Assembly: GCF_024055895.1 (NCBI RefSeq)
Contig: NZ_JAMXLE010000003.1
Coordinates: forward strand, 310,001 to 374,000
Reading direction: 5' to 3'
Length of the DNA stretch: 64,000 nt
Origin: Rhizobium sp. L1K21
GTDB lineage: Bacteria > Pseudomonadota > Alphaproteobacteria > Rhizobiales > Rhizobiaceae
This document shows positions 8,660 through 33,647 of this stretch, in pieces. Position 1 is the stretch's first letter. Every line of letters begins with the position of its first letter. Made by a program: the position numbers and the translations under genes. The notes below the pieces were generated by a model, which saw only the letters and a list, made by a program, of their open reading frames with translations, did no database searches and was not told the origin of the DNA.

Positions 8660-8684
8660 AACCGCGGCTGCGGAGAAAGGTTCC
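8660..8684 (-). promoter_or_regulatory. EcfG-type promoter for SDR gene
   Basis: On the minus strand GGAAC (8684-8680), 16-base spacer, GGTT (8663-8660), 66 bp before the start codon at 8593. It matches the alphaproteobacterial EcfG/RpoE2 consensus GGAAC-N16/17-cGTT apart from one base. Confidence 0.7.
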
Positions 8685-8724
8685 CGCTTCCGGCAACGCC
8701 CGTCTTGCGCCCGCTCACCGATTA

Positions 8725-8898
8725 TCAAAGGCGATGCTCATCGCTTTCGTCGTTGTACATCGCCTCGACGGCATGCCGCCGCGAACGGCGCTCCGATGGG
8801 GTCAGTCTGCGCGAACGCATCATTCCGTAAAAAATCGCCAGGCCCAGCAGGACCGGGCCGATACCGGCCACGAAAAGCCACATCAAAATCGACATCAT
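8725..8898 (-). CDS. small single-span membrane protein
   Basis: A 57-residue protein too short for most gene callers. It begins with two methionines, then an uninterrupted hydrophobic stretch (SILMWLFVAGIGPVLLGLAI, residues 3-22) ending at YGMMRSRR, then a basic, charged tail with acidic end. The positive cluster after the helix predicts an N-out, C-in single span. A strong GGAAGGA ribosome site lies 8 bases upstream, and an EcfG-type promoter (8929-8953) precedes it. Function unknown; the regulatory context suggests a stress-induced envelope peptide. Confidence 0.7.
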   Translation of the reverse strand: MMSILMWLFVAGIGPVLLGLAIFYGMMRSRRLTPSERRSRRHAVEAMYNDESDEHRL

Positions 8899-8928
8899 GA
8901 GTTCATCCTTCCTTTCTTTGTGCAGCTT

Positions 8929-8953
8929 AACAATTCAAACCCGCTCCTGTTCC
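8929..8953 (-). promoter_or_regulatory. EcfG-type promoter for small membrane protein
   Basis: Minus strand GGAAC (8953-8949), 16-base spacer, TGTT (8932-8929), 30 bp before the 8898 start. It stands back to back with the + strand element at 8977-9001, the two -35 boxes being 23 bp apart. Confidence 0.55.
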
Positions 8954-8976
8954 GCCGGCAAAGTGGTGACCCTACG

Positions 8977-9001
8977 GGAACATCTGACGCCCAGTCTGGT
9001 T
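8977..9001 (+). promoter_or_regulatory. EcfG-type promoter for 9085-10485 operon
   Basis: GGAAC (8977-8981), 16-base spacer, GGTT (8998-9001), 83 bp before the ATG at 9085. It probably drives the three co-directional genes that follow with gaps of about 30 bp. Confidence 0.7.
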
Positions 9002-9084
9002 TTGCCCGTGCTTACATTCCAACCCCACCCGCACACCGGCCAACCGTGGCCCGTGCGGTTCTGAGAGGCGAAGAAACAATTGAT

Positions 9085-9363
9085 ATGTCTGCAGAGTTGA
9101 TGAAATATCGCGAGGATCTGGCAACGCCGGATTCCGTCATCATCCGGATCGTCACGGAAGATGGCCTCACCCGAGCCTTCGTGCGCTTCAAAAGCGAAGG
9201 TGAAGACAGCACACCCCATTATCCGACCGAAGAGATTCCCGTGCCCGAGGCCATCAGGCTTGCTTCAAATAGAAGGGAAGCCGGCCAGCCCATTCTTGTT
9301 CAGCTGGAAGAAGGCGCTGAATGGGATGACGATTGGGGTGATCTGCGCGACGACGCCGAATAG
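9085..9363 (+). CDS. small acidic protein of unknown function
   Basis: A 92-residue acidic protein starting MSAELMKYREDLATPDS and ending in a strongly acidic DDDWGDLRDDAE tail. The ATG at 9085 is preceded by GAGGCGAAG; the open frame extends further upstream but only across the divergent promoter region. No known domain is recognised. It is the first gene of a probable stress operon with the SDR at 9397 and another small acidic protein at 10207. Predicted soluble and cytoplasmic. Confidence 0.7.
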   Translation: MSAELMKYREDLATPDSVIIRIVTEDGLTRAFVRFKSEGEDSTPHYPTEEIPVPEAIRLASNRREAGQPILVQLEEGAEWDDDWGDLRDDAE

Positions 9364-9396
9364 GCAAAACGAATTTTCAAATTCAAGGAGAAGGTA

Positions 9397-10176: not shown

Positions 10177-10206
10177 AATCTGCAGATCGTGAAAGGGAAT
10201 ACCATC

Positions 10207-10485
10207 ATGACACATTCCAAAATGACAACCGATCATGAAACCATAAAAGAATGGGTGGAGGCGCGTGAAGGCCGCCCCTCCATCGTACGCACGGAGGGAC
10301 CGGGTGGCATATTGCGCATCGATTTCGGCACGCCGGACGACGATCTGGAAGAGATCAACTGGACGGAATTCTTTGAGGTTTTTGAGGACAACAACTTGAA
10401 ATTCCTCTATCAGGAGCATCTGGAAGATGGACGCTTGAGCCGCTTCAACAAGTTCATTGATCGCGAACACGACCCGGCAGATTGA
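10207..10485 (+). CDS. small acidic conserved protein
   Basis: A 92-residue protein beginning MTHSKMTTDHETIKEWVEAR and rich in acidic and aromatic residues (LEEINWTEFFEVFEDNN). The ATG at 10207 with GAAAGGG 9 bases upstream is preferred over an in-frame GTG at 10189. I recall proteins of this kind as small uncharacterised proteins of rhizobia, often encoded near stress genes, but I assign no function. It is the third gene of the 9085-10485 transcript. Confidence 0.7.
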   Translation: MTHSKMTTDHETIKEWVEAREGRPSIVRTEGPGGILRIDFGTPDDDLEEINWTEFFEVFEDNNLKFLYQEHLEDGRLSRFNKFIDREHDPAD

Positions 10486-10521
10486 GTACCCCGCCGATGC
10501 ATATCGCTTCCCTTCCTGCCG

Positions 10522-10737: not shown

Positions 10738-10854
10738 GATGAACTCCTGTTTGTCTGCTCTGAACGCAGGTCGGCTACTGTCAACCCGAGACGGTCGATC
10801 AGAAAGGTTTCCATACCGATCTGCATCAGCACTCTCTCGGATTTGGCAATCCTG

Positions 10855-11855: not shown

Positions 11856-12326
11856 TCACGTCACCTCAAAGGTTCCCGTCAGTGTGGCCTCAGCCAAAGC
11901 GTGCTTTTGCGCCTCATCCGTAAGCGTCTTGACGCCGGCTGCACCGGGAAGAGGAATGCTCGGCACATCAAGCGCCTGCAGACGGAAACGGTAACGGTGT
12001 TGGCCATGCCCTTTTGGCGGCTCCGGTCCGTCGTAGCGCGTGTTGCCGAAATCGTTTTCGGAGAAGCGCAATCCGGATTCCGGCTGCGTGTCGGCGCTCT
12101 CGGCGAGTTTTCGACAATCGCCCGACAGGTTAAACACACCGCAATGATGAAATGTGCCGCTTGGCGCATCGGGATCTTCCACAGTCAAGACGAAACTGCG
12201 GGTCCTGTCAGGCGCTCCGGCCCATTTCAGCGGAGGCATGAGGTTTTCTCCCAAGCGGCTGTATTTTTCCGGAATTGGCTCACCGTCTGCAAAGGCCGGG
12301 CTCATCAACGTCATGGACATTTCCAT
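11856..12326 (-). CDS. YbhB/YbcL-type PEBP (Raf kinase inhibitor-like) protein
   Basis: Phosphatidylethanolamine-binding-protein fold, 156 residues, bacterial YbhB/YbcL group. The conserved anion-site motifs DPDAP (51-55), GTFHHCGVFN and GPEPPKGHGQHRYRF are all present. No signal peptide, so cytoplasmic. The start is preceded by CAGGAGATGG. A GGAAC-N16-AGTT promoter lies 31 bp upstream (12358-12382). A second PEBP gene is at 14556, also behind an EcfG-type promoter. The biochemical role of bacterial PEBPs is unsettled. Confidence 0.88.
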   Translation of the reverse strand: MEMSMTLMSPAFADGEPIPEKYSRLGENLMPPLKWAGAPDRTRSFVLTVEDPDAPSGTFHHCGVFNLSGDCRKLAESADTQPESGLRFSENDFGNTRYDGPEPPKGHGQHRYRFRLQALDVPSIPLPGAAGVKTLTDEAQKHALAEATLTGTFEVT

Positions 12327-12357: not shown

Positions 12358-12382
12358 AACTGAATTGGTCGGGGATGGTTCC
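12358..12382 (-). promoter_or_regulatory. EcfG-type promoter for PEBP gene
   Basis: Minus strand GGAAC (12382-12378), 16-base spacer, AGTT (12361-12358), 31 bp before the start at 12326. Confidence 0.62.
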
Positions 12383-12450: not shown

Positions 12451-12475
12451 GGAACATTCACCAGAAGATGGGGTT
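12451..12475 (+). promoter_or_regulatory. EcfG-type promoter for DUF1328 gene
   Basis: GGAAC (12451-12455), 16-base spacer, GGTT (12472-12475). The predicted transcription start falls at the first of two 25-bp direct repeats, giving a leader of about 100 bases before the ATG at 12579. Confidence 0.68.
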
Positions 12476-12482
12476 GGGCCGA

Positions 12483-12578: not shown

Positions 12579-12749
12579 ATGCTGAAATGGGCGATTATAT
12601 TCTTGATCATCTCGCTGATCGCGGGTTTCTTTGGATTCTCAGGCGTCTCGGCAGCCACAGCGACCATTGCAAAAGTGCTATTTGCCATCGCGGTCGTTAT
12701 TTTCCTTGTATTCCTCGCACTCGCAATCTTTGGTGCCGGCGTTGCCTAA
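12579..12749 (+). CDS. DUF1328 small membrane protein (YtjA-like)
   Basis: A 56-residue, almost entirely hydrophobic protein with two membrane spans (about 2-24 and 28-53), starting [20 protein letters not shown]. This is the DUF1328/YtjA family, found in many proteobacteria and often stress-induced. The start is set by CGGAGGA 9 bases upstream. It has its own EcfG-type promoter and a leader holding two hairpin repeats. It converges with the topoisomerase gene, 30 bp away. Confidence 0.88.
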
Positions 12750-12779: not shown

Positions 12780-13850
12780 TTACACGGCATCGTCTCCGCG
12801 AAGATAAACGAGTAGCCTTTGTTCCATTCTGCTCATCCCGGTGACGGGTTTGGGCGGATGGTTCAAAATATCTTCCAGTTGCTTGGCGGCTTTGTCATCC
12901 ACCGCCGTTGCGATCACCGAGGGATGAACATAGCTCGAACGGCAGATCGAAGCGGTGTTGCACAATTCTTCTGCCGCCGCCTCGCACAGACTTTTGATGG
13001 ATGGGGACTCGCCGCGCCGTATCGCAGTCGCGGCTTGCTGAAAGGCGGCGAGCGTTCCACCCCAGGTGCGGAAGACCTTGGCGGAAACGCTTCCGGTGCC
13101 CTCGCAAATATCATCGAGATATTGGTTCAAGAGACCGGAGTCCACCTTGTGCAGGTTGCCGTCATTATCACGCCAACTGAAAAGCTCGCGCCCCGGCAGG
13201 TCTGCAATCCTTTCAAGTGTCTTTTGCAGCTTTGGCGCATGCAGGCTGCGTTGGAGGATACGGTTCCCTTTGCCCCGAAATCGTATCTTCAGCGAATTTC
13301 CGAAAGAGACATGGCGCTTCATCAGCGTCGTTGCACCATAGGTTCCGTTGTCGTCCAGATACTCCCAGCTCCCGGCCCTCAAATGCGCGGCATCCAGAAG
13401 AAGGACAAGTGTGCCCAACACGGCGTTTCGGATCTCGGAAATATCTTCGGCGTCCCGTCTCGCCACCCTGCGTATCCGCGGCAACATCTCGGCAAATGCA
13501 ATCAGGCGGTCAAACTTCTGTTCCGAACGAAGTTTCTGCCATTCCGGGTGATATCGATATTGCTTTCGGCCGCGCGCGTCGAAACCTGTGGCCTGAAGGT
13601 GGCCCTGCGGATTCATGCAAATCCAGACGCGTTCATGGGCGGGCGGGATTCCCAGCGCCTTGATCCTGGCCTTGACCTCTTCATCACGCACAAGCGATCC
13701 ATCGGGGTAGCGATAGGAAAATCCGCGGCCTCTTCGTTCTCTCAAGATGCCCGGCTCATGATCGGAGACATAGACCAGACCTGAGCGTCTGATTTCCTTT
13801 TCGATGTCCGCGTTGTTGTTTTCATCGCCCGCCCGGCGTGTGGGACCCAT
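12780..13850 (-). CDS. DNA topoisomerase IB
   Basis: Type IB (poxvirus-like) topoisomerase, 356 residues from the ATG at 13850. It nicks one DNA strand through a 3-prime phosphotyrosine and relaxes supercoils of both signs. Visible features: GRGFSYRYPDG near the N-terminus, DNGTYGATTLMKRHV, the lysine loop RFRGKGNR, KVFRTWGGT with the active-site Arg, and Tyr307 in SSYVHPS as nucleophile. The start is one base after the stop of the preceding gene (TGACATG), so translation is coupled; the frame is open upstream but overlaps that gene. Third gene of a stress operon from 14404. Confidence 0.88.
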   Translation of the reverse strand: MGPTRRAGDENNNADIEKEIRRSGLVYVSDHEPGILRERRGRGFSYRYPDGSLVRDEEVKARIKALGIPPAHERVWICMNPQGHLQATGFDARGRKQYRYHPEWQKLRSEQKFDRLIAFAEMLPRIRRVARRDAEDISEIRNAVLGTLVLLLDAAHLRAGSWEYLDDNGTYGATTLMKRHVSFGNSLKIRFRGKGNRILQRSLHAPKLQKTLERIADLPGRELFSWRDNDGNLHKVDSGLLNQYLDDICEGTGSVSAKVFRTWGGTLAAFQQAATAIRRGESPSIKSLCEAAAEELCNTASICRSSYVHPSVIATAVDDKAAKQLEDILNHPPKPVTGMSRMEQRLLVYLRGDDAV

Positions 13851-13851
13851 G

Positions 13852-14169
13852 TCAACGGCGGTCTGGCAGGATAACGTCTTTATAGACGGCACCGCGCAGC
13901 ACCTCGCGGGGGCCATCTTGAGGAAACTCTCCACTCTCATCTACAATGACCGTGAAGAGCTTTTCGTTGCGGAAGGCAGAGGCACCTGTGGTGGAAACAC
14001 CCTCACCCGGGAGTGCATCACTGCCCAGAAAATCGTGTTCCGCTTCAACAGCGACCTGTCTTGCGTCACCGGTGCTTTTAGCACGCACGGTGATTTCGCC
14101 CTGCTTGGCTGAAAGCTCCCAGTTCGGATCATCATAAGGCGCGGTCGGTACCAGGCGGTAAATCTGCAT
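13852..14169 (-). CDS. conserved hypothetical protein, topoisomerase partner
   Basis: A 105-residue soluble protein starting MQIYRLVPTAPYDDPNWELS, followed by QGEITVRAKSTGDARQVAVEAEHDFL and a C-terminal VLRGAVYKDVILPDRR. No domain recognised; the alternation suggests a small beta-rich fold. It is flanked by TGACATG junctions on both sides: its ATG follows the stop of the 77-residue gene by one base, and the topoisomerase ATG follows its own stop by one base. The position between a small disordered protein and topoisomerase IB suggests a DNA-related stress role, but that is only context. Confidence 0.65.
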   Translation of the reverse strand: MQIYRLVPTAPYDDPNWELSAKQGEITVRAKSTGDARQVAVEAEHDFLGSDALPGEGVSTTGASAFRNEKLFTVIVDESGEFPQDGPREVLRGAVYKDVILPDRR

Positions 14170-14170
14170 G

Positions 14171-14404
14171 TCAGTCGCGCTCCTTGCGGGATTTGGACGT
14201 GTCTTGGTCATCCTTCGTTTTCATCGCGTCGGAGACATTCTCTTTCCGCGGGTCCTGCAGGTTTTCGCCGACAGCGTCGCGGTCGATATCCGGATCATCT
14301 TTCGCCGGCATGTAGCCGCGCGGACGGTTTTCCTCAGGACCTTCCCAGCGTGGTGATTGTTCAGTCGTTCCGGCTTTTCCCGGTTTGGGGCTCTTGATGG
14401 CCAT
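14171..14404 (-). CDS. small charged, probably disordered protein
   Basis: A 77-residue protein MAIKSPKPGKAGTTEQSPRW... composed almost entirely of Lys, Asp, Glu, Pro, Arg and Ser, ending KTKDDQDTSKSRKERD. It has no predicted hydrophobic core and is probably intrinsically disordered. The ATG at 14404 is preceded by CAGGAGGAAACC, so the start is firm. It is the first gene of the three-gene topoisomerase IB operon and lies 30 bp behind a GGAAC-N16-GGTT promoter. Similar tiny hydrophilic proteins occur at 20758, 20962, 24072 and 26309. Confidence 0.68.
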   Translation of the reverse strand: MAIKSPKPGKAGTTEQSPRWEGPEENRPRGYMPAKDDPDIDRDAVGENLQDPRKENVSDAMKTKDDQDTSKSRKERD

Positions 14405-14434: not shown

Positions 14435-14459
14435 AACCCCCAGCCCTTTCAAATGTTCC
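14435..14459 (-). promoter_or_regulatory. EcfG-type promoter for topoisomerase IB operon
   Basis: Minus strand GGAAC (14459-14455), 16-base spacer, GGTT (14438-14435), 30 bp before the ATG at 14404. It forms a divergent pair with 14480-14504; the -35 boxes are 20 bp apart. Confidence 0.7.
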
Positions 14460-14479: not shown

Positions 14480-14504
14480 GGAACATCTACAGGCCCAGTC
14501 GGTT
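14480..14504 (+). promoter_or_regulatory. EcfG-type promoter for second PEBP gene
   Basis: GGAAC (14480-14484), 16-base spacer, GGTT (14501-14504), 51 bp before the ATG at 14556. Confidence 0.7.
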
Positions 14505-14555: not shown

Positions 14556-15011
14556 ATGAAGATTAACAGCGCTGCATTCCGCGACGGTCATCAGATCCCG
14601 GACAAATTTACCAGGTTCGGAGAGAACGCGGTGCCACCGCTTCAGTGGGACGATGTGCCAGAGGGAACCCAGAGCTTTGCTCTTCAGGTGGAAGATCCCG
14701 ATGCCAGCAAATCCCCGTTCGTTCATTGTGTCATTTACAACATCCCGGCCGACCGCCTTGCCATCGACGAGCCGGCCTTGTCCTCAAGCAAAGGTGTGGT
14801 CTTCGCCACCAACGATTTCGGAAACCGGGGCTATGATGGTCCAGAGCCGCCGAAGGAACACGGCCCCCATCGCTACGTCTTTCGCCTGGCCGCCCTTGAT
14901 GTTCCCGAGCTCGACGTTCGCGACTGGACGAAGGCATCCGATGTCTGGCGTCAGGCCTGCATTCACAGCCTCGCGATCAGCGAGCTGACGGGGCGTTACG
15001 AGAAAACCTAG
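14556..15011 (+). CDS. YbhB/YbcL-type PEBP protein (second copy)
   Basis: A 151-residue bacterial PEBP, related to the protein at 11856-12326. Motifs DPDA (47-50), SPFVHCVIYNIP and GPEPPKEHGPHRYVF outline the anion-binding pocket. Cytoplasmic, no signal peptide. The start is preceded by GAAAGGGAGGCTGTC. It is divergent from the topoisomerase IB operon, with back-to-back EcfG-type promoters between them. The two copies differ enough that recent duplication is unlikely. Confidence 0.88.
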   Translation: MKINSAAFRDGHQIPDKFTRFGENAVPPLQWDDVPEGTQSFALQVEDPDASKSPFVHCVIYNIPADRLAIDEPALSSSKGVVFATNDFGNRGYDGPEPPKEHGPHRYVFRLAALDVPELDVRDWTKASDVWRQACIHSLAISELTGRYEKT

Positions 15012-15179: not shown

Positions 15180-15204
15180 GGAACAAATTGATAGAGCAGG
15201 TGTT
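15180..15204 (+). promoter_or_regulatory. EcfG-type promoter for DUF2231 / PQQ dehydrogenase pair
   Basis: GGAAC (15180-15184), 16-base spacer, TGTT (15201-15204), 37 bp before the ATG at 15242. The rest of the 15012-15179 gap shows only a short inverted repeat (CTACG...CGTAG near 15107-15122). Confidence 0.6.
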
Positions 15205-15241: not shown

Positions 15242-15691
15242 ATGGCTTTACATGACGATTATCGCGCTAACTCGGTAAGATATTACCCGCTTCGCAATTT
15301 GTTTGTTCCTTTTCCTTTTGTGGGTTTTATCCTGACACTCTTTTGCGACACGCTTTATTGGCAAACAGCAAACCTGATGTGGAAGCATTTTTCCTCCTGG
15401 CTTTTATTTGCCGGGCTTGTTTTCGGCGCATTTGGCCTGCTGGCCGGCATTGTAGATTTGCTGCGCCCGAAAGAGCATGGCGTCCAGCCAACGCTGTTTG
15501 AAATACTCGGCTATCTGGCGGTGCTGGTCCTGGCGCTGTTCAATAGCCTCGTGCATGCCGCAGACGGTTGGACCGGCGTTGTTCCCGACGGCATCATCTT
15601 ATCTTTCCTCACAGTGGCCTTTGTCGTCGCCACCGTCTGTTTCTCGGCGGCCTATACGCGTCCACACGGTTGGAGGACATATCATGACTAA
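15242..15691 (+). CDS. DUF2231 membrane protein
   Basis: A 149-residue integral membrane protein with four predicted spans (about 21-38, 49-68, 81-99 and 113-137), starting MALHDDYRANSVRYYPLRNL. The layout matches the DUF2231 family, which is often encoded beside periplasmic or membrane redox proteins. The last 8 bases overlap the start of the PQQ-type lipoprotein dehydrogenase, so the two are co-translated; the membrane protein could be a haem or electron-transfer partner for that enzyme, though no haem ligand pattern is obvious. Behind an EcfG-type promoter. Confidence 0.8.
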   Translation: MALHDDYRANSVRYYPLRNLFVPFPFVGFILTLFCDTLYWQTANLMWKHFSSWLLFAGLVFGAFGLLAGIVDLLRPKEHGVQPTLFEILGYLAVLVLALFNSLVHAADGWTGVVPDGIILSFLTVAFVVATVCFSAAYTRPHGWRTYHD

Positions 15692-17945: not shown

Positions 17946-17970
17946 CGAACATTTGCCGTTGACAAGCGTT
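17946..17970 (+). promoter_or_regulatory. weak EcfG-type promoter for DUF2188 gene
   Basis: CGAAC (17946-17950), 16-base spacer, CGTT (17967-17970), 71 bp before the ATG at 18042. One mismatch in the -35 box, but the -10 is the canonical CGTT. Confidence 0.4.
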
Positions 17971-18041: not shown

Positions 18042-18278
18042 ATGCACATCACCTATCACGTGGAGCGTCATGACGAAGTATGGGCTTACAGACTGGACGA
18101 CGTCTGGTCAGAGCCTTACGCGACCCATGACGACGCGTTTGAGGCAGCCCGTTCCGCTGCTGAGCGCCAACGTCTCGAAGGCAGTGACACAACGATCAAC
18201 TATCAGACAGAAGATGGTCAATGGCACTATGAGTTTTCGGCAGCCGGGGACCGCCCGCAGAGCGACGTGGAAGCCTGA
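18042..18278 (+). CDS. DUF2188-like small protein
   Basis: A 78-residue protein MHITYHVERHDEVWAYRLDD followed by ATHDDAFEAARSAAERQRLEG and INYQTEDGQWHYEF. The pattern of a small beta hairpin, a helix carrying an AA.SAAERQ motif and a final strand fits the DUF2188 family. The start is preceded by GAAAGAAAGGC. Soluble, function unknown; the family is frequent among stress-induced genes. A separate longer frame overlapping it from 17941 is not supported. Confidence 0.75.
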   Translation: MHITYHVERHDEVWAYRLDDVWSEPYATHDDAFEAARSAAERQRLEGSDTTINYQTEDGQWHYEFSAAGDRPQSDVEA

Positions 18279-20285: not shown

Positions 20286-20663
20286 CTAAATTTGCTGAAA
20301 GAAGATACGAATGAGCGACAGAAACACCGAGGCCGTGATCGCCAGGCAAAACGCCCAGTTCAGGAAAAGCAGAGTAACCTTCATTCCCTTGTGATGGACG
20401 TAGTCCTCAATGATCGTCTGCATCCCGAGCCGCATGTGCAGTATGGCAAGCGCCATGAAGACAAATACCGCGGGCGCTATCCAGAGCGAGGAAAGCGCAC
20501 CCACGACCTCATCGCGCGAGCGCCCGAAAAGCCAGACCCCCAGAAAAATCATGAAAGGCGTCAAGAACATCAGGAGGACTGCACGCAGCCGATCTTTAAA
20601 AAAGTCTTCAGTTCCTTCCCGTGCGGAACCAAGACCCATGACGCGTCCAAGCGGTGATTTCAT
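20286..20663 (-). CDS. orphan SdhD-like succinate dehydrogenase membrane anchor
   Basis: A 125-residue protein with three membrane spans (about 31-46, 60-82 and 95-120). MKSPLGRVMGLGSAREGTED and HMRLGMQTIIEDYVHHKG are the hallmarks of alphaproteobacterial SdhD: His76 corresponds to the haem ligand, Asp87-Tyr88 to the quinone-site pair. No sdhA, sdhB or sdhC gene is nearby; instead an NDH-2 gene follows after 54 bp. It may be a paralogue that binds haem or quinone with another partner. An EcfG-type promoter lies 28 bp upstream of the start. Confidence 0.8.
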   Translation of the reverse strand: MKSPLGRVMGLGSAREGTEDFFKDRLRAVLLMFLTPFMIFLGVWLFGRSRDEVVGALSSLWIAPAVFVFMALAILHMRLGMQTIIEDYVHHKGMKVTLLFLNWAFCLAITASVFLSLIRIFFQQI

Positions 20664-20691: not shown

Positions 20692-20716
20692 AACCACGGG
20701 GTGTGCGAAATGTTCC
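20692..20716 (-). promoter_or_regulatory. EcfG-type promoter for SdhD/NDH-2/DUF4142 operon
   Basis: Minus strand GGAAC (20716-20712), 16-base spacer, GGTT (20695-20692), 28 bp before the start at 20663. Confidence 0.7.
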
Positions 20717-20961: not shown

Positions 20962-21147
20962 TCATCTATCCTGCTGATAGCCTTGATTGTGTGTGTTCAC
21001 GTTGATGTTGCCCTGTTGACCGGTCTTGTCCGGGTCCTTTGGAGACACAGTCTTCTTGTCCGTCTCGGCGTTCGACACATGGGCAGGTTCGCCCGTTCCT
21101 TTCGGGCTGCGGTTTTCCTCAGGGACCGGCGGCGTTCTGCTGTTCAT
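20962..21147 (-). CDS. tiny hydrophilic, probably disordered protein
   Basis: A 61-residue protein MNSRTPPVPEENRSPKGTGE ... DKTGQQGNINVNTHNQGYQQ, without hydrophobic segments and rich in Asn, Gln, Pro, Lys and Thr. The ATG is preceded by AAAGGGAAGAGAA. It is the first gene of a two-gene unit with 20758-20952, 62 bp after an EcfG-type promoter. The composition is reminiscent of desiccation-type hydrophilins, but no family is claimed. Confidence 0.68.
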   Translation of the reverse strand: MNSRTPPVPEENRSPKGTGEPAHVSNAETDKKTVSPKDPDKTGQQGNINVNTHNQGYQQDR

Positions 21148-21209: not shown

Positions 21210-21234
21210 AACCACAGCGTCTGCGAAATGTTCC
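21210..21234 (-). promoter_or_regulatory. EcfG-type promoter for two tiny hydrophilic genes
   Basis: Minus strand GGAAC (21234-21230), 16-base spacer, GGTT (21213-21210). The stretch around its -35 box (TGGAACATTTCGCA) is identical to that of the promoter at 20692-20716, which suggests duplication or conserved extra contacts. Confidence 0.7.
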
Positions 21235-21294: not shown

Positions 21295-21319
21295 GGAACC
21301 TATTGGCCAAAAGGCAGTT
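21295..21319 (+). promoter_or_regulatory. EcfG-type promoter for inositol-phosphate synthase operon
   Basis: GGAAC (21295-21299), 16-base spacer, AGTT (21316-21319), 37 bp before the ATG at 21357. Confidence 0.6.
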
Positions 21320-21356: not shown

Positions 21357-22460
21357 ATGTCTGGCGGACACATACGCATTGCTATTGTTGGCGTTGGCAA
21401 TTGTGCATCATCGCTTGTCCAGGGTCTGACCTATTACCGCGGCATTGATGACAATGAGCCTGTGCCGGGACTAATGAATGTTGATCTCGGCGGTTACCGG
21501 ATTGACGACATCGAGGTCGCTGCTGCCTTTGACGTCGCCCAATCAAAAGTGGGCCGCGATGTTGCAGAGGCGATATTCGCACCGCCGAACAATACTTTCC
21601 GCTTTGCCGAGGTGGCGCCCACCGGTGTTCATGTCAATCGCGGTCCCACACTCGACGGGCTCGGCCGCTATCTGAACGAGGATATGCAGGAATCGACAGA
21701 ACCGCTTGCCGATGTCAGCACCATCCTGCGGGAGAGCGAGGCCGACATTCTGATCTCCTATCTGCCGGTTGGCTCTGAAGAGGCAACGCGCTGGTATGCC
21801 GAACAAGCACTTGAAGCTGGCTGCGCCTTTATCAATTGCATCCCGGTTTTTATCGCCTCCGATCAGGATTGGCAGCGAAAATTCGCCGAGCGTGGTCTCC
21901 CGATCATCGGCGACGACATAAAAAGCCAGGTTGGCGCAACAATCCTGCACCGCGTGCTGGTCAACCTGTTCAAAGAACGCGGTGTGCGGATCGATCGGAC
22001 CTATCAGCTCAATTTCGGCGGTAACACAGATTTTCTCAATATGCTGGAGCGCGAGCGGCTTCAGTCAAAAAAGATATCAAAGACGCAGGCCGTGACCAGC
22101 CAGCTCGACCTGCCGCTCGCTCCCGATGATGTTCATGTCGGCCCAAGCGATCACGTGCCTTGGCTGCACGACCGCAAATGGGCGCACATACGCCTCGAAG
22201 GCACCACCTTTGGCGGCGTCCCGATCAGCATGGAAACAAAACTCGAGGTTTGGGACTCCCCCAATTCGGCAGGCGTTGTGATTGATGCAATCCGATGCGC
22301 AAAATTGGGGCTGGACCGCGGAATGGGTGGGCCACTCGAAGGACCATCAAGCTATTTCATGAAGTCACCACCCCAACAATATTCCGATACGCAAGCACGC
22401 GAAGAAACCCGCAAATTCATCTCGGGAGAGCACGATCATGCTTCCGAGGCTGCCGAATGA
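21357..22460 (+). CDS. ino1: inositol-3-phosphate synthase
   Basis: A 367-residue actinobacterial/proteobacterial-type myo-inositol-1-phosphate synthase, converting glucose 6-phosphate to inositol 3-phosphate with bound NAD. Visible features: [18 protein letters not shown] nucleotide-binding segment near 6-23, [37 protein letters not shown] near 183-200, [13 protein letters not shown] near 220 and the [20 protein letters not shown] region. Cytoplasmic. The following phosphatase gene overlaps by ATGA, so inositol phosphate could be processed in the same transcript. EcfG-type promoter upstream. Confidence 0.9.
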
Positions 22461-24010: not shown

Positions 24011-24035
24011 GGAACAATTGCTGCATTGCGAAGTT
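24011..24035 (+). promoter_or_regulatory. EcfG-type promoter for 24072 / TreZ unit
   Basis: GGAAC (24011-24015), 16-base spacer, AGTT (24032-24035), 36 bp before the ATG at 24072. Confidence 0.6.
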
Positions 24036-24398: not shown

Positions 24399-26252
24399 AT
24401 GCCGCACGATATTTCCGCGCCTGCCTCTGGAAAAGAAGCACGTCTGTTTCCAAAAAGCTGGGGAGCCGAATTCATCCGCGATGGTGCCGCACGCTTTCGC
24501 CTTTGGGCGCCGGCGCTGACGGAACTGTCGCTCGAACTGGACGGACAGGCCTACCCGATGGGCAAAATAGGCGACGGCTGGTTTGAGTTCCTGGCAGAAG
24601 GCGTTGCGGCCGATACACCCTATCTTTTCGTGTTGCCGGATGGCCAGCGTGTTCCCGATCCCGCCTCGCGCGCGCAACTGTCAGGTGCCGGCGGCCCGTC
24701 CCTATTGGTCGATCCAACGTCCTACCGCTGGGAGGCACGCGGTTGGCTGGGGCTGCCGTGGGAAGAAACCATCTTCTACGAATTGCATATCGGCACCTTT
24801 ACACAGGAAGGAACCTTCCGTTCGGCCATCGGCAAGCTCGACTACCTGAAAGACCTCGGCATAACCGCCATCGAAATTATGCCGGTGGGCCAGTTTCCCG
24901 GCGTGCGCGGATGGGGCTATGACGCTGTTCTTCCCTACGCCCCACATTCAAGCTACGGCACCCCCAACGACCTGAAGGCGTTGGTGGATGCCGCGCATGT
25001 GCGCGGTCTTTCGGTTTTTCTGGACGTCATCTACAATCATTTTGGACCCGCCGAAAATTTCCTGCCGACCTATGCCCCAGATTTCTTCGACAAAGATGTC
25101 GTGACCCCGTGGGGACAGGCGATCGACTATTCGAAAGATGCCGTGCGTCGCTTCATCTGTGAAAATGCGCTGTACTGGCTTGAAGAGTATAATTTCGATG
25201 GATTGCGGCTCGACGCAACCGAGCAGATCAGAGACGAGCATTCGCCGACGCATATCCTGCACGAGATCAGCCAGCGCGTGGAGGCCTACTTTGATCGCCC
25301 GAGACACCTGGTGGTGGAGGACCACCTCAATCGGGCCAGCCTGTTGGAAAAGACGTCCAGCCGCAAGTCGCGGCTGTACCAAGGTTCATGGAACGATGAT
25401 TTTCACCACGCTGCCCATGTGCTCGCCAGTGGTGAGACCGGCGGCAATTACGAAGGCTTCGATTTGACGCCTGTCGACAGGATCGGCACCGCGCTCGCAC
25501 AAGGCTTCGTGCGACAAGGGCAGCCTTTTCCCGCACGGAAAGAAATGCAGCATGGCGAGCCATCTGCTCATCTGCCGCCCACAGCCTTTGTGAATTTCAT
25601 TCAGAATCACGACCAGATCGGCAATCGCCCCTTTGGCGATCGTCTGAACACCTATGCCCCGGAAGACAAGGTGCGGCTCTTGACTGCAATTCTTTTCCTC
25701 GCGCCTGCTGTTCCGCTCATCTTCATGGGAGATGAAATGGGATCACGCCAGCCATTCCAATTCTTCTGTGATCTGCCATCGCTCGCTGATGCCATTGTTG
25801 AAGGGCGGTTTGGGGAATGCCAGAATTTCGGCCCGCTCCCCAAGGGAGCCGAGGCTCCGGCAGATTTGCCCAATCCCAATCATGACGAAACGTTCCTTCG
25901 CTCGAAAATCGATTGGTCGGAAGCCCAAAACCCCAAAGCTGCGAGCTTCATCGGGTTCATATCGGCACTGGCAAAATTACGAGCCGAACACATTGTACCC
26001 TACCTCACTACCCTGCTGGAAAACTGTGGTGAGCTGATCGAAGGCGACGAGGGTGCGGTGGCTGTCAACTGGACGCTGAATGGGAAAAGGTTGCAGATGA
26101 GAGCCAATTTTTCCGACAAGCCTGTCAACACGAACGCTATTGTCGGTCAGCTTATTTTCAGCCTTGGCGATTTTGTTCAGGCCGATGACATGACGGTTCT
26201 AGGGAAGGATGCCATGGTGGTCGCACTTTGTGACGCCCCCACCCTGGCGTGA
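24399..26252 (+). CDS. treZ: malto-oligosyltrehalose trehalohydrolase (TreZ)
   Basis: A 617-residue GH13 enzyme releasing trehalose from malto-oligosyltrehalose. An N-terminal carbohydrate-binding E-set domain (about 15-110, FRLWAPALTELSLEL) precedes the barrel. Conserved blocks: YELHIGTFTQEGTFRSAIGK, DVIYNHFGP, nucleophile Asp in FDGLRLDATEQI, VVEDHLNRASLL and FIQNHDQIGNR. It needs TreY (maltooligosyltrehalose synthase) as partner, which is not in this window. Trehalose is a stress protectant, which fits the EcfG-controlled surroundings. A hairpin follows the stop. Confidence 0.92.
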   Translation: MPHDISAPASGKEARLFPKSWGAEFIRDGAARFRLWAPALTELSLELDGQAYPMGKIGDGWFEFLAEGVAADTPYLFVLPDGQRVPDPASRAQLSGAGGPSLLVDPTSYRWEARGWLGLPWEETIFYELHIGTFTQEGTFRSAIGKLDYLKDLGITAIEIMPVGQFPGVRGWGYDAVLPYAPHSSYGTPNDLKALVDAAHVRGLSVFLDVIYNHFGPAENFLPTYAPDFFDKDVVTPWGQAIDYSKDAVRRFICENALYWLEEYNFDGLRLDATEQIRDEHSPTHILHEISQRVEAYFDRPRHLVVEDHLNRASLLEKTSSRKSRLYQGSWNDDFHHAAHVLASGETGGNYEGFDLTPVDRIGTALAQGFVRQGQPFPARKEMQHGEPSAHLPPTAFVNFIQNHDQIGNRPFGDRLNTYAPEDKVRLLTAILFLAPAVPLIFMGDEMGSRQPFQFFCDLPSLADAIVEGRFGECQNFGPLPKGAEAPADLPNPNHDETFLRSKIDWSEAQNPKAASFIGFISALAKLRAEHIVPYLTTLLENCGELIEGDEGAVAVNWTLNGKRLQMRANFSDKPVNTNAIVGQLIFSLGDFVQADDMTVLGKDAMVVALCDAPTLA

Positions 26253-26308: not shown

Positions 26309-26503
26309 TTAGAGAACACCTCCGGACAGGTTGCGGCCATTGATCGAGGCCGGCACGCGAACTTCACCGCGCCCCTTTTCCGAAAGCGGAACGGACGGAT
26401 AAGGCGAATCCGGCTTGCGTGTTTTTTCCATCGTCTTGGCTCGCTGAGTTTTCTTTTCGCTGTGGCGCTTTTGCGTAACGTTGGGACGCGGTTCGATTTT
26501 CAT
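26309..26503 (-). CDS. tiny basic hydrophilic protein
   Basis: A 64-residue basic protein MKIEPRPNVTQKRHSEKKTQ ... EVRVPASINGRNLSGGVL. Lys, Arg, Ser, Pro and Glu dominate, with no membrane segment; the high positive charge could allow nucleic-acid binding, but no motif supports this. GAGGAAATGTC precedes the ATG on the minus strand. It has its own EcfG-type promoter 29 bp upstream, and a MITE-like element begins 14 bp beyond that promoter. Confidence 0.65.
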   Translation of the reverse strand: MKIEPRPNVTQKRHSEKKTQRAKTMEKTRKPDSPYPSVPLSEKGRGEVRVPASINGRNLSGGVL

Positions 26504-26532: not shown

Positions 26533-26557
26533 AACCGGTTTGCGCTGCAAAGGTTCC
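26533..26557 (-). promoter_or_regulatory. EcfG-type promoter for 26503 gene
   Basis: Minus strand GGAAC (26557-26553), 16-base spacer, GGTT (26536-26533), 29 bp before the start. The MITE-like element starts 14 bp upstream of the -35 box. Confidence 0.7.
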
Positions 26558-26570: not shown

Positions 26571-26838
26571 TAGGGTCAGGACCTATTAATTTGTGGTGTT
26601 GCGTTGGATAAAATGCGTTCAGATGGCGGGAAATGGTGCAAGAGAAGGCTTATTGCCTTGTCGCAGCAGCATTTCCAACAGATGGATGCATTTTATCCAA
26701 CCCGAAGGGCGAGGCAGCTTTCCCGATTGGCTGCGTCGAAGACGCTTGAAAATACGACATATTTCCTGCGCGACTTCTCCTTGCCACTCGAAAAATCTGC
26801 TCTCGCGCAACGCCATAAATTAATAGGTCCTGACCCTA
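26571..26838. mobile_element. 268-bp MITE-like element with 33-bp inverted ends
   Basis: The ends 26571-26603 and 26806-26838 are inverted copies matching at 31 of 33 positions (outer part TAGGGTCAGGACCTATTAAT). The element is bounded by TA on each side, consistent with a TA target duplication as used by IS630/mariner-type and some IS5-group elements. Inside, GTTGGATAAAATGC (26603-26616) and its inverse (26688-26701) form a further pair of arms. A 65-codon open frame on the minus strand (26619-26816) almost fills the element but resembles no transposase I recognise. The size and lack of transposase make it non-autonomous. Confidence 0.8.
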
Positions 26839-27099
26839 ACGCTTCATCGCAGCTGCCCGTTGGGACGCTGCTTCCAGAATGGAGCGCAACTCTGCAGCCG
26901 TTTGCGCCTGTTCCGCGTAGGCTTCACCCGGCACCACGCCCGGGTCTTCCTCCTGGTCAAGCACGGCGAGGTCGCCATCGGGTGCAAACATGGCCGCATC
27001 GATCTCCTTGCCCTGCTGCATCAAGGCCGCTGCCAGTTGGATGAGAATCTCCCGATGCGCATTCAATCGCGCCTCGAGCGACTTGTGGCGGTTTTCCAT
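26836..27099 (-). CDS. small helical conserved protein, stop codon at MITE edge
   Basis: An 87-residue protein MENRHKSLEARLNAHREILI ... QAQTAAELRSILEAASQRAA, predicted as two helices with an acidic loop. AAGGAG precedes the ATG at 27099. Its stop codon TAG (26838-26836) uses the terminal TA of the MITE-like element plus the element's first G; in the inferred empty site the next base is also G, so the same TAG would be read. The insertion therefore replaced only the 3-prime untranslated part. No EcfG-type element was found for this gene. Confidence 0.68.
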   Translation of the reverse strand: MENRHKSLEARLNAHREILIQLAAALMQQGKEIDAAMFAPDGDLAVLDQEEDPGVVPGEAYAEQAQTAAELRSILEAASQRAAAMKR

Positions 27100-27140: not shown

Positions 27141-27166
27141 GGAACAATCAGCTTCAAACTGAAGTT
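27141..27166 (+). promoter_or_regulatory. EcfG-type promoter for CDF transporter
   Basis: GGAAC (27141-27145), 17-base spacer, AGTT (27163-27166), 53 bp before the ATG at 27220. Confidence 0.5.
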
Positions 27167-27219
27167 GTTTGGCAGACGTAGCAGCGCCTTTGCCCGCATG
27201 TAACTCGAAAGGAAGAACA

Positions 27220-28143
27220 ATGCCGCATCAGCATGGTTCCGAAGATTCCAGCGACAGCAGAATCATATTTGCTCTGGTCATCAATCTTGCGCTGACGGCA
27301 GTCCAGATCGTTGCCGGCTTATTTGCTGGAAGTCTGGCCCTGGTCGCCGATGCCATGCACAATTTCAGCGATGCCATGTCGATCGGTATCACCTTTGCGG
27401 CACGCCGCATCGCACGACGACCCGCCGACGAGACCATGACCTTCGGCTATGGCCGCGCCGAGGTGGTTGCAGCGCTCATCAATTACACGACTCTGATCGT
27501 CATTGGTCTCTATCTCGTCTACGAAGCCGTGACTCGCTTCTTTGATCCGGGCGACGTGGGCGGCTGGACGATGGTCATTGTTGCCGCAGTTGCGGCGGTC
27601 ATTGACTTGGCAACCGTGTTTCTCACCTATTCCGGCTCCCGCCACAGCATGAATATCCGCTCCACATTTCTCCACAACTTGGCCGACGTATTCGGGTCTC
27701 TCGGAGTCATTGCAGGCGGCGTATTGGTGATCGTGTTCAAATGGACTGTCGCCGATCCGCTTATCACCCTGGCGATTGCGGCCTATATTCTCTGGCAGGC
27801 CTTTCGCGAAATTATCAAGCCGATCCGGCTTCTGGTCCTGGCGGTGCCGGAGGGTATCAATGGAAGAGAGGTGGTGGAGACCATAAAATCCGTGCCAGGT
27901 GTCTCCGGCTTGCATCATCTGCATCTTTGGTCAATCAACGAACATGAGCATGCTGTTGAGGCCCATATCGAGACGGATCAGAAGCACCTGCAGCGCATCG
28001 AGCAGATCAAGTCCGATCTCAGGCAAGCGTTGAAAAAGAATTTCGGCATCGAACACACGACCTTCGAATTCGAAGATCCCGCCGACACGACGTGCGAGGC
28101 ATCGAAGACGCTGATCAATCAGCGCAAACCCCTGTCGCTATGA
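27220..28143 (+). CDS. cation diffusion facilitator (Zn-type) transporter
   Basis: A 307-residue CDF antiporter that exports divalent cations, probably zinc, in exchange for protons. Six membrane spans are visible; the transport-site pairs H47-x3-D51 in span 2 (DAMHNFSDAMS) and H152-x3-D156 in span 5 (FLHNLADVFGS) are the two-histidine arrangement of zinc/cobalt members. A cytoplasmic C-terminal domain (GVSGLHHLHLWSINEHEHAVEAHI) follows. The ATG at 27220 has GAAAGGAAGAACA upstream and is preferred to an earlier in-frame codon at 27169. EcfG-type promoter upstream. Confidence 0.88.
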   Translation: MPHQHGSEDSSDSRIIFALVINLALTAVQIVAGLFAGSLALVADAMHNFSDAMSIGITFAARRIARRPADETMTFGYGRAEVVAALINYTTLIVIGLYLVYEAVTRFFDPGDVGGWTMVIVAAVAAVIDLATVFLTYSGSRHSMNIRSTFLHNLADVFGSLGVIAGGVLVIVFKWTVADPLITLAIAAYILWQAFREIIKPIRLLVLAVPEGINGREVVETIKSVPGVSGLHHLHLWSINEHEHAVEAHIETDQKHLQRIEQIKSDLRQALKKNFGIEHTTFEFEDPADTTCEASKTLINQRKPLSL

Positions 28144-28144: not shown

Positions 28145-28804
28145 CTAGTCGGCTGGAAGTTTGTTGACCATCTCGATGGCAGCATCGTCGGAAATATGCT
28201 CGTAGTTCCTGTAAAGCCGGCGCGCTTCGCCTGACGAGGCAACCTGGTGCAGCGATACGACATCCTGAACATTTGAGGGTACGGTGTTCAGAATCTCCTC
28301 CGAGGTCACCGGCATGGCCAGTGTAATCGTACGTGGCTTGATTCTCTCCAGCGCCATCCAAACCGCCCTGAGAAGCTCAGGGGACGTTTCGCATTCACAA
28401 ACCAGAATGACATCGCGGTCAGTCAGCGTTTCAGGCGTGTGATACGGCATGTATTCACGCAGAATGCGCTCCGCATGAAGAAGAAGATTGCGTCGTTCCT
28501 CCTCGACATAGCCCGGCGGTACAAAATGTTTGACCGCTTCGTCTTCGTCCATGATGATATGCGGCTCTGCTCCGCTGACCATGAAGCCAATCTTCTTCTC
28601 CGGCTCCAACGGTGCCTTCACATCCAAAACGATCAGAAGCTCCAGCGGCAGATTCAGGTTTTTGGCCATTTCCAGCGCCATGGGAACACCAAGCGGCGGA
28701 ATTGCCGCGAGAACGGGCTCCTCGGGCATTTTCTCAGACAGCGCTGTCGTTAGCTGTTGCCCGGCATCCGACTGATTTTCAAAAACATATTTAATATCGC
28801 TCAT
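28145..28804 (-). CDS. phosphoribosyltransferase-fold protein with lost PRPP loop
   Basis: A 219-residue protein with the overall layout of type I phosphoribosyltransferases of the stress-associated kind: AAIPPLGVPMALEMAKNLNL, LELLIVLDVKAPLEPEKKIG, YVEEERRNLLLHAERILREY. The PRPP-binding loop, normally VDDG-ATGAT, is here VILVCECETSPELL, so both acidic residues and the T-G-A-T loop are absent. It is probably catalytically inactive and may serve as a binding or regulatory protein. It ends two bases from the convergent CDF gene and has an EcfG-type promoter (N17) 86 bp upstream. Confidence 0.75.
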   Translation of the reverse strand: MSDIKYVFENQSDAGQQLTTALSEKMPEEPVLAAIPPLGVPMALEMAKNLNLPLELLIVLDVKAPLEPEKKIGFMVSGAEPHIIMDEDEAVKHFVPPGYVEEERRNLLLHAERILREYMPYHTPETLTDRDVILVCECETSPELLRAVWMALERIKPRTITLAMPVTSEEILNTVPSNVQDVVSLHQVASSGEARRLYRNYEHISDDAAIEMVNKLPAD

Positions 28805-28890: not shown

Positions 28891-28916
28891 AACCTCGTGG
28901 GTAGGATTTTTGTTCC
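28891..28916 (-). promoter_or_regulatory. EcfG-type promoter for PRTase-like gene
   Basis: Minus strand GGAAC (28916-28912), 17-base spacer, GGTT (28894-28891), 86 bp before the start at 28804. Confidence 0.55.
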
Positions 28917-30501: not shown

Positions 30502-30526
30502 GTCGCAGGTTGGATATGGCTGACGC

Positions 30527-31889: not shown

Positions 31890-31939
31890 GGGTTCTTCCG
31901 TTGATTCCGTTCGGTTGCAGTATCAATCTCTGCTCCCAG

Positions 31940-31964
31940 AACTCCCTTCTTCTTTGAAGGTTCC
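31940..31964 (-). promoter_or_regulatory. EcfG-type promoter for lipoprotein/CDF pair
   Basis: Minus strand GGAAC (31964-31960), 16-base spacer, AGTT (31943-31940), 50 bp before the start at 31889. Confidence 0.62.
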
Positions 31965-32009
31965 AGACCTTTGCTGAATGGAGAAACGTGAAGACCTTTC
32001 TTTCCCGTG

Positions 32010-32951
32010 CTAAACAGCTCCTGAGCGTATGCGCTCGCCCAGCAGATCGGCTTCGACGAAGATTTTCTGTACTTCGGGATGTGCATCGCGAATACGTTTC
32101 TGCACCCGATCAACAACCTCAAAGAGCGCATCCTTTTGCACGTCAGCGGCGAACTCGATCTCCATGTTGAGGAGAACCTGTTTGGGTCCGAGATGCATTG
32201 TCAGTAGCCTTGGAACCGCGTGCACGCTGCTGTCTTCGGTGGCGATTTTACGAAGCGCCTTCAAAAGATCAGGATCGGCACTTTCGCCGACGATCAGTGC
32301 CCGCGATTCATAAACAAGGAAACAAGCAACGATAATCAGAATATGGCCGATCCCGATTGAGGCCAGACCATCAAAAAGCGGCTTCTCGAACGTCACCGAC
32401 AGGAAAACGCCCGCCAGTGCAACCATAATGCCGAGCAGTGCTGCCGTGTCTTCCGCAACGACGGTGAACACCGACGGGTCCTTGCTCCTGCGGAAGGTCT
32501 TAAACACACTCTCACCCTGCTTGCGCTCCTTCAAAAGCGACCGCAACGCGATGAGCCAGGACGTGCCCTCAGCGAGAAACGCGATCGCCAACACCACATA
32601 GTTCCAGATCGGCTGGGTAACCGGCTCAGGATGCCTAAGATGGGAAACGCCTTCATAGATCGAGAGACCGCCGCCAACTGAAAATAGCAGGACCGCAACG
32701 ATCAAACCCCAGAAATAGATCTCATGACCGTGACCAAAGGGATGCTGCTCATCCGGCGGGCGCCGGCCAAGCCGTATGCCGAGAAGGAGAAGCAACTCGT
32801 TGCCGGTGTCCACCACCGAGTGGAAGGCTTCCGACAGCATGGACGAACTGCCGGTAAAGAAAGCAGCGACGAACTTTGCAACCGCTATCAAGAGATTGGC
32901 TGCAATTGCACCATAGACCGCTGTAGGTCGATTTTCGGATTGATCCGCCAT
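32010..32951 (-). CDS. cation diffusion facilitator transporter (ZnT9-like)
   Basis: A 313-residue CDF transporter with six spans. Span 2 has H44-x3-D48 (SEAFHSVVDTGNE); span 5 has the acidic pair in VVAEDTAALLG rather than a histidine, as in the ZnT9-like subgroup. The HPFGHGHEIYFWGLI loop between spans 2 and 3 is typical. The C-terminal domain (TMHLGPKQVLLNMEIEFAAD) is cytoplasmic. The gene is 59 bp downstream of the P19-like iron gene and may share its promoter, although a small hairpin lies between them. Confidence 0.87.
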   Translation of the reverse strand: MADQSENRPTAVYGAIAANLLIAVAKFVAAFFTGSSSMLSEAFHSVVDTGNELLLLLGIRLGRRPPDEQHPFGHGHEIYFWGLIVAVLLFSVGGGLSIYEGVSHLRHPEPVTQPIWNYVVLAIAFLAEGTSWLIALRSLLKERKQGESVFKTFRRSKDPSVFTVVAEDTAALLGIMVALAGVFLSVTFEKPLFDGLASIGIGHILIIVACFLVYESRALIVGESADPDLLKALRKIATEDSSVHAVPRLLTMHLGPKQVLLNMEIEFAADVQKDALFEVVDRVQKRIRDAHPEVQKIFVEADLLGERIRSGAV

Positions 32952-32981
32952 TCTGCGTTCTCAAACACAAGGTGCGTTCAA

Positions 32982-33000
32982 GGCTCCACCAATTGGAGCC
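32982..33000 (-). terminator. weak hairpin between P19-like and CDF genes
   Basis: A perfect 7-bp stem GGCTCCA / TGGAGCC with a 5-base loop, just downstream of the P19-like stop. No T run follows, so it may attenuate rather than end transcription into the CDF gene. Confidence 0.35.
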
Positions 33001-33010
33001 GTCGAACTGA

Positions 33011-33559
33011 TCAGCCTTGCCCCGTCTTGATATCGACGCCTTCGAAAACCACTTCGACAGGCTTTGCATAGCGCTTGCCGTTGGTTTCATCATGGCGTGC
33101 AAACGAAGGGGCGGCGATGTTGACGGTGACGTCGTACTTGCCTGCATCCGGCACTTTCACATTGGCACCATAGTGGTAGAGGCCAGGATGCCACAGAAAG
33201 GGCGTCGTTAAGGGTCCGATCTTGGCGCCATCTTCCGCAGTGAGCGTGACCTCAATCTCCAAGCCGGGGATAAAGCGATGATCGGCCGCATCGCTGACGG
33301 AGACCTCGATGTGGCAGTTCTCCTCGTCCGGCTCCTGCCATTTCAGGCCGCCCTCGCCATCGGGGCGATACATGCCTTCGGCTTCTTCCTGGGCGATAGC
33401 CACGATATAGTCTTCCACCTGTTTCTTCGCGCCGGTGTGAGCGACTTCCGTGACCATATATTCGAGCGACTTGTTGTAAGCCTTGCCTTCTTCCCTGGCC
33501 AGTTCGAGCTGACGCTTGTCTGCTTCTTCGCTCGGTACCTGTTTCTTTGCTTCAGTCAT
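33011..33559 (-). CDS. P19/Tp34-like iron-transport protein without signal peptide
   Basis: A 182-residue protein whose C-terminal two thirds (about 75-165) resemble the P19/Tp34 family of periplasmic iron-binding partners of FTR1-type ferrous iron transporters: DAADHRFIPGLEIEVTLT, TTPFLWHPGLYHYGANVKV and KYDVTVNIAAPSFARHD. The start is firmly fixed by GAAGGAGGACACC, and the N-terminus MTEAKKQVPSEEADKRQLEL is charged, so there is no secretion signal. It should therefore be cytoplasmic, unlike the known family members. An EcfG-type promoter lies 62 bp upstream. Confidence 0.75.
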   Translation of the reverse strand: MTEAKKQVPSEEADKRQLELAREEGKAYNKSLEYMVTEVAHTGAKKQVEDYIVAIAQEEAEGMYRPDGEGGLKWQEPDEENCHIEVSVSDAADHRFIPGLEIEVTLTAEDGAKIGPLTTPFLWHPGLYHYGANVKVPDAGKYDVTVNIAAPSFARHDETNGKRYAKPVEVVFEGVDIKTGQG

Positions 33560-33621
33560 TAAGGTGTCCTCCTTCAGCGTCCGGCTACACGGAATGCGCA
33601 GCCGGGACCTTCGGGATGACT

Positions 33622-33647
33622 AACTTCATCTATCGGGGTTTGGTTCC
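33622..33647 (-). promoter_or_regulatory. EcfG-type promoter for P19-like gene
   Basis: Minus strand GGAAC (33647-33643), 17-base spacer, AGTT (33625-33622), 62 bp before the start at 33559. It is the last such element in the island. The region 33648-33801 beyond it shows no gene. Confidence 0.55.

Follow-up and report, generated by a model that had tools for sequence, protein, structure and literature searches.

Promoter Cluster on Contig C9

We have analysed a cluster of EcfG-type promoter sites in Rhizobium sp. L1K21 that extends into a 64,000-nucleotide stretch of contig NZ_JAMXLE010000003.1 (C9:310001-374000, where C9 is the contig; this stretch is called the window, or the 64-kb window). 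The sites, scored as GGAAC-N16/17-NGTT on both strands, gather in a block of 72 kb (C9:271.7-343.6 kb, 46 matches), which also encodes a second EcfG-type sigma factor, here called EcfG2, beside the chromosomal EcfG (EcfG1). The genome comprises 4.34 Mb in 11 contigs, and C9 is probably a secondary replicon, considering that it carries a repC-family gene (C9:109302-109823).

The window contains 19 matches, 18 of them at 8660-33647 (Table 1), and none lies to the right of 33,647. A genome-wide density check gave 276 matches in the whole genome, from which 1.6 would be expected in 25 kb, or 1.35 when the cluster is excluded from the background; for the 18 observed, the Poisson p is about 1e-14. 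The block is therefore much denser in promoter sites than the genome as a whole. With any other spacing between 8 and 29, the same segment yielded 0-3 matches. The reversed loose pattern gave 336 matches genome-wide, indicating that most scattered matches are chance occurrences, whereas the cluster is not. The -10 boxes of the 18 sites are GGTT in nine, AGTT in six and TGTT in three, with no CGTT; the spacer is N16 in 15 and N17 in three, and the spacer sequences vary. The sites at 20692-20716 and 21210-21234 are nearly identical, on the same strand and about 520 bp apart, as if copied. The nineteenth match (1110-1134, plus strand) was rejected as a promoter, being located within a called gene and probably a chance occurrence.

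The first-pass annotation of this DNA had described a 25-kb island with its left edge at 8.66 kb, in which EcfG/RpoE2 promoters stand 28-104 bp before 17 separate genes, with a further near-match (CGAAC-N16-CGTT). The dense cluster is real and the near-match is present, but the edge was wrong. The sites continue leftward to C9:271.7 kb, 38 kb past the left end of the window, so that the 25-kb island was rejected, and the segment at 8660-33647 is the right third of the 72-kb cluster. In total, 16 of its 18 sites lie outside called genes and upstream of one, at 29-150 bp from the start, and longer alternative open reading frames (ORFs) bring several of the larger distances into the 28-104 bp range. 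The other two sites (8929-8953 and 8977-9001) fall inside one doubtful called ORF. Gene calls and transcription units came from a finder written for this analysis, not a published one.

A site was found within 350 bp of 38 of the 53 transcription units of the block, compared with one of 13 in the left flank (to C9:250 kb) and none of 20 in the right flank (C9:343.8 to 394 kb). In the block, eight divergent pairs of sites are less than 150 bp apart. The operon at about 1-7530 of the window belongs to the cluster, since it is led by a GGTT site ending at C9:309995.

Second Sigma Factor and Canonical Locus

The sigma gene of the block (C9:305124-305663, minus strand) lies 4.3 kb left of the window. 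Its product matches Sigma70_r2, Sigma70_r4_2 and PhyR_sigma2, with region 2 and region 4 both present, and shares 36% identity with the chromosomal EcfG beside phyR-nepR. Ten Sigma70_r2 matches were found in the genome, nine on contig C7 and one on C9. The canonical locus is on C7, with ecfG at 86874, nepR at 87478 and a PhyR-like protein at 91892-92584. This NepR match is the only one in the genome, and none stands beside the C9 sigma gene. Five perfect sites, all CGTT, occur in the 20 kb surrounding the canonical phyR-nepR-ecfG genes. A CGTT site is also located 242 bp upstream of the C9 sigma gene, and it is one of the two C sites of the block.

In the tree, EcfG1 proteins form one clade (98/90) and all EcfG2-type rows, with the C9 sigma and the EcfG2 of R. 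etli among them, fall outside it. One EcfG2-type row joins two outgroup sigmas, a third outgroup joins EcfG1 and long branches were flagged; because of these scattered outgroups and long branches, the tree does not support EcfG2 as a single clade. In region 2, EcfG1 proteins (n = 30) carry N59 (30/30), A62 (30/30), L68 (30/30) and E71 (28/30), whereas EcfG2 proteins (n = 55) carry mostly R, S or K at 59, followed by S (55/55), M (51/55) and T (42/55). The C9 sigma has K, S, M and A. For the EcfG1 sample, 29 of 30 NepR loci gave a sigma match. Judging from structures of extracytoplasmic function (ECF) sigma factors, the region-2 stretch separating EcfG1 from EcfG2 is probably the one that contacts the -10 element.

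First Base of the -10 Box

We compared the first -10 base between the block and the rest of the genome in sites with A/C then A/T after GGAAC, a restriction chosen after viewing the island. This left 103 sites genome-wide (66 non-C and 37 C), 36 in the block and 67 in the rest. When only upstream sites were taken (71 of the 103; intergenic and at most 300 bp from a start), the block showed 31 non-C to 2 C, compared with 12 to 26 elsewhere (p 3.4e-8). Without the restriction, the 40 intergenic sites of the block (34 N16 and 6 N17) were 36 non-C to 4 C. Relative to the block's own intergenic NGTT, C was depleted (2/34 vs 26%, p 0.003) and G was mildly raised (19/34, p 0.01). At the sequence level, the putative promoters of the block thus differ from chromosomal ones by a one-base shift at -10. 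Their designation as EcfG/RpoE2 promoters stands in that they are EcfG-type, but they are not simply canonical, as CGTT is found in 2/33 in the block and 26/38 elsewhere.

EcfG2-type Neighbourhoods in Other Genomes

Among the matches listed, those of EcfG2 type with at least 119 bits come from 39 of the 151 family genomes. This gap was set by eye, and two genomes at 113 and 109 bits were counted as without EcfG2. The contig scan kept the best 80 of 135 relatives, most of them not EcfG. In 40 EcfG2-type neighbourhoods (10-20 kb each, 38 genomes), we counted 145 sites, compared with 10.8 expected from the rates of their own genomes, which is 13 times denser; one or more sites occur in 32 of them, and enrichment reaches p < 0.001 in 18. 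Three matches occur in one genome (G105), one with an inner stop, and Rhizobium paknamense has two EcfG2-type genes on different contigs (L188 and L224).

Six plasmids were searched for sites, and the three with complete listings were compared. Counts of sites at most 30 kb from the EcfG2-type gene were 16 in R. etli p42f (1.8 expected), 20 in Martelella pMM593 (1.2 expected) and 25 in a Roseinatronobacter plasmid (2.0 expected), so that the sites gather there. The first -10 base differs significantly between near and far sites in Roseinatronobacter only (p 0.0007).

In 54 EcfG2 neighbourhoods, the upstream sites were 244 non-C to 100 C, with about 16 chance sites expected from spacing controls. 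The comparison with 28 to 60 near EcfG1 (p 3e-11) is weakened by mixed filters, as the EcfG2 count used upstream sites only and the EcfG1 count used all sites with spacers of 15-18. In 20 of the 54 loci, a site lies at most 250 bp before the EcfG2-type gene itself, and its first -10 base is C in 13 of these 20, compared with 87 of 324 other upstream sites (p 6e-4). This excess of C fits a role of EcfG1 in driving ecfG2.

Genes of the Block

The gene families give a mixed picture of the earlier suggestion that the cluster is a grouped regulon of many unknown small genes. Stress-type genes are indeed grouped, but many genes of the block have recognisable families. In the window, these are two short-chain dehydrogenases, a zinc alcohol dehydrogenase-like protein, two PEBP proteins, DUF1328, topoisomerase IB, DUF2231, a glucose/sorbosone dehydrogenase-like protein, DUF2188, DUF4142, an NDH2-like oxidoreductase, inositol-1-phosphate synthase, an alpha-amylase-family protein, three cation-efflux proteins, a Crp-like regulator and an Fe2+-transport-family protein. 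Beyond 33.8 kb lie Peptidase M20 and LysR genes. Rfam and tRNA scans of the window found nothing. When the stretch L013 was used in a distant DNA search, only a UDP-glucuronate decarboxylase-like stretch matched among the rows listed.

Table 1. Promoter sites and related features in the window (window positions).
Feature	Position	Strand	Context
Seven-gene operon, nucleotide-sugar/glycosyltransferase-like by sequence (without Pfam scan)	34-7530	+	GGTT site C9:309971-309995, just left of window
GGAAC-N16-GGTT	8660-8684	-	before short-chain dehydrogenase (SDR) gene 7619-8593 -
GGAAC-N16-TGTT	8929-8953	-	inside doubtful ORF; weakest of the 18
GGAAC-N16-GGTT	8977-9001	+	before ORF at 9161 and SDR gene at 9397; inside doubtful called ORF
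GGAAC-N16-AGTT	12358-12382	-	before PEBP-family gene 11856-12320 -
GGAAC-N16-GGTT	12451-12475	+	before DUF1328 gene 12579-12749 +
GGAAC-N16-GGTT	14435-14459	-	before unit 12780-14404 -, whose last gene is topoisomerase IB
GGAAC-N16-GGTT	14480-14504	+	before second PEBP-family gene 14556-15011 +
GGAAC-N16-TGTT	15180-15204	+	before DUF2231 15242-15691 + and glucose/sorbosone dehydrogenase-like gene
Near-match CGAAC-N16-CGTT	17946-17970	+	before DUF2188 gene 18042-18278 +
GGAAC-N16-GGTT	20692-20716	-	before Sdh_cyt-like gene 20286-20663 -
GGAAC-N16-GGTT	21210-21234	-	before small ORF 20962-21147 -, without Pfam match
GGAAC-N16-AGTT	21295-21319	+	before inositol-1-phosphate synthase 21357-22460 + and histidine phosphatase-family gene
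GGAAC-N16-AGTT	24011-24035	+	before small ORF (24072 or 24183)-24317 +, then alpha-amylase-family gene 24399-26252 +
GGAAC-N16-GGTT	26533-26557	-	before small ORF 26309-26503 -
GGAAC-N17-AGTT	27141-27166	+	before cation-efflux gene 27220-28143 +
GGAAC-N16-TGTT	27216-27240	-	before small ORF 26836-27099 -
GGAAC-N17-GGTT	28891-28916	-	before ORF without Pfam match 28145-28804 -
GGAAC-N16-AGTT	31940-31964	-	before unit 30527-31790/31889 -, with cation-efflux gene
GGAAC-N17-AGTT	33622-33647	-	before Fe2+-transport-family gene 33011-33559 -; right edge of cluster

To the left of the window, 20 proteins were scanned, of which 19, including the sigma, have a family and one has no match. They comprise CAP, DUF4142, an Na+/H+ exchanger, PRC-barrel with EF-hands, a redoxin-like protein, COX1, COX2, NrfD, a 4Fe4S/molybdopterin-binding protein, DUF4396, a starch-synthase-family protein, alpha-amylase, PLD-like, an endonuclease/phosphatase-family protein, DUF892, BON, Cu/Zn superoxide dismutase and CBS. 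The genes for COX1, COX2, NrfD and the molybdopterin/4Fe4S protein (C9:278.4-290.3 kb) resemble an alternative complex III-oxidase cluster, and the annotated Martelella neighbourhood (L022) has a similar gene row. A smaller second group of sites is located on contig C6 (27.5-32.7 kb), with six sites in 5 kb (3 C and 3 non-C) near small stress-type genes.

Discussion

We consider that the 72-kb block may be the local regulon of the EcfG2-type sigma encoded inside it, with a cascade from EcfG1, and we give this reading a probability of about 0.62. During stress, PhyR/NepR would free the chromosomal EcfG1, which would read CGTT promoters, among others that of ecfG2, 242 bp before the gene. The block would then be transcribed from GGAAC-N16/17-[GAT]GTT by EcfG2, which would no longer favour C at the first -10 base. 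The cluster, the sigma gene inside it, the -10 difference, the CGTT site before ecfG2 and the same clustering elsewhere can all be seen in the DNA itself; from them we infer that EcfG2, not EcfG1, reads the block with an altered -10 preference. That one of the two C sites of the block precedes ecfG2 suggests the order EcfG1, EcfG2, block.

On the one hand, the chromosomal EcfG1 might read the block and the chromosome alike, with GGTT, AGTT and TGTT as tuned weaker promoters and the second sigma merely as an amplifier. Such boxes do occur in known systems: C/GGTT boxes are reported in the EcfG regulon of Methylobacterium extorquens, and CATT and TGTT boxes in Sphingopyxis, where CGTT gave the most transcript (PMC7083833, PMC4814048). 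Sphingopyxis granuli (EcfG1/EcfG2) and M. extorquens (EcfG1-6) have several EcfG copies as here, and their first -10 base varies. The Sphingopyxis copies are reported to form a hierarchy, but in both organisms the paralogues read the same promoters, and the accounts consulted describe no clustered local regulon there. If selection on the -10 base were merely relaxed, about a quarter of the block sites should carry C, and the observed depletion below the intergenic NGTT level speaks against this. A single reader also fits poorly with the -10 contrast between the block and the rest of the genome, and in R. etli each sigma favoured its own promoter (PMC3892343). We therefore consider a single reader unlikely.

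On the other hand, a third regulator, that is, another ECF sigma with a GGAAC-like -35, could read the block instead of EcfG2. Several ECF sigmas are among the Sigma70_r2 matches of the genome, and RpoE6 (ECF26) of S. meliloti overlaps with RpoE2 promoters (PMC6180224). However, the EcfG2 gene is the only sigma gene in the block, the other nine being on C7, and the same clustering recurs around EcfG2-type genes elsewhere, which makes a third regulator very improbable. Considering that the motif is short and that the genome has fewer forward than reversed matches, the cluster could also be thought a product of chance or of a repeat. Chance is refuted by the near-zero counts at other spacings, the Poisson probability, the intergenic upstream position of 16 of the 18 sites and their varied spacers, and the likelihood of this explanation is negligible.

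Several results weigh against a local regulon of EcfG2 with its own -10 preference. In other genomes, 8 of the 40 EcfG2-type neighbourhoods have no site, that of Mesorhizobium jarvisii is C-rich (7/8 sites), and the -10 base shows no significant difference between near and far sites in R. etli p42f (p 0.26) or Martelella pMM593 (p 0.68). The ratio of 244 to 100 is close to neutral, which indicates loss, not reversal, of the preference for C and leaves a general change of preference unsupported. At the genome level, EcfG2-bearing genomes have a higher median of non-C sites over control (4.47 vs 1.49 per Mb, p 6e-8), but they are also richer in CGTT (3.51 vs 0.46 per Mb), their raw non-C share is lower (0.59 vs 0.64), and with the CGTT excess in the model the link between EcfG2 and non-C sites drops to 1.03 (standard error 0.60). 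The non-C difference persists among genomes whose CGTT excess is 1.5 per Mb or more (36 vs 33 genomes, p 0.001). This association is weakened, and we do not use it as proof. From the literature, R. etli EcfG1 gave no direct rise of the ecfG2 promoter in E. coli (PMC3892343), a single motif is stated for both R. etli sigmas (PMC4167512) and overexpression of S. meliloti RpoE5 raised one gene only (PMC6180224). Upstream of R. etli katG, which was EcfG2-dependent by array, we found no perfect or one-mismatch GGAAC site.

The closest known system is EcfG2 of R. etli (PF00052). Like the C9 copy, it is a second EcfG-type sigma on a secondary replicon, its subgroup being plasmid-borne (PMC3892343), it lies on the same side of the tree and it has no reported NepR/PhyR beside it. 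In R. etli, EcfG2 increases in stationary phase, and the ecfG2 mutant shows sensitivity to oxidative stress (PMC3188799). Each of the two R. etli sigmas prefers its own promoter and their targets are partly separate, while the phyR promoter is read by both; in the ecfG2 mutant, the EcfG1 motif was found in 1/19 lowered units (PMC3892343). Jans et al. (2013) found no EcfG2 motif and view the two sigmas as parallel, not serial (PMC3892343). Around EcfG2 on p42f (45-67 kb), GGAAC-N16-NGTT sites gather, 11 of 12 being non-C, and they include those before the ferritin-like, cytochrome P450 and DUF4142 neighbours of ecfG2. Here, RHE_RS26680 is presumably PF00052, judging from its place and from the lack of any other EcfG-type match in the stretch. 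Unlike the C9 sigma gene, R. etli ecfG2 lacks a perfect GGAAC promoter. Its best candidate is CGAAC-N16-TGTT (L187:19538-19562, plus strand), 112 bp before the gene, and this non-C box would fit the published self-activation. A sigma-70 family gene with an NrsF-family partner also lies about 2 kb from ecfG2 (L187:22082-23271).

RpoE5 of Sinorhizobium meliloti (SMb21484) is likewise a second ECF15 sigma on a megaplasmid, and it is directly activated by the canonical RpoE2 (PMC6180224). Unlike the block, the pSymB neighbourhood of S. medicae has 6 upstream sites in 40 kb. With the canonical EcfG/RpoE2/SigT and PhyR-NepR system, the block shares the GGAAC -35, the 16-17 bp spacer and the GTT; the canonical EcfG, which in this genome is the C7 copy, differs in its CGTT -10, its phyR-nepR neighbourhood and its scattered targets. 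Among the titles found in the literature searched, none concerned a clustered EcfG2 regulon or an EcfG that reads GGTT, most subscription journals being outside its coverage.

Of the completed alphaproteobacterial genomes, about half have at least two EcfG-like genes, and these additional copies "have not satisfactorily been explained" (PMC3892343, slightly shortened). We propose tentatively, and regard as somewhat doubtful, that EcfG2-type sigmas are a widespread second layer in the stress response of Alphaproteobacteria. Each would be activated by the canonical EcfG, would owe a lost or altered preference for C to a few residues of region 2 and would lie on a secondary replicon beside a contiguous block of its own targets. 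Sigma and regulon would then be one transferable unit, partly insulated from the chromosomal regulon.

In summary, a sigma factor amid a dense block of one-base-variant promoters offers a direct and testable answer to the question of the extra EcfG copies, and the motif of the block is a candidate motif for R. etli EcfG2. Our study indicates how a duplicated sigma factor may diverge along with its regulon, and how the two may perhaps be transferred together.

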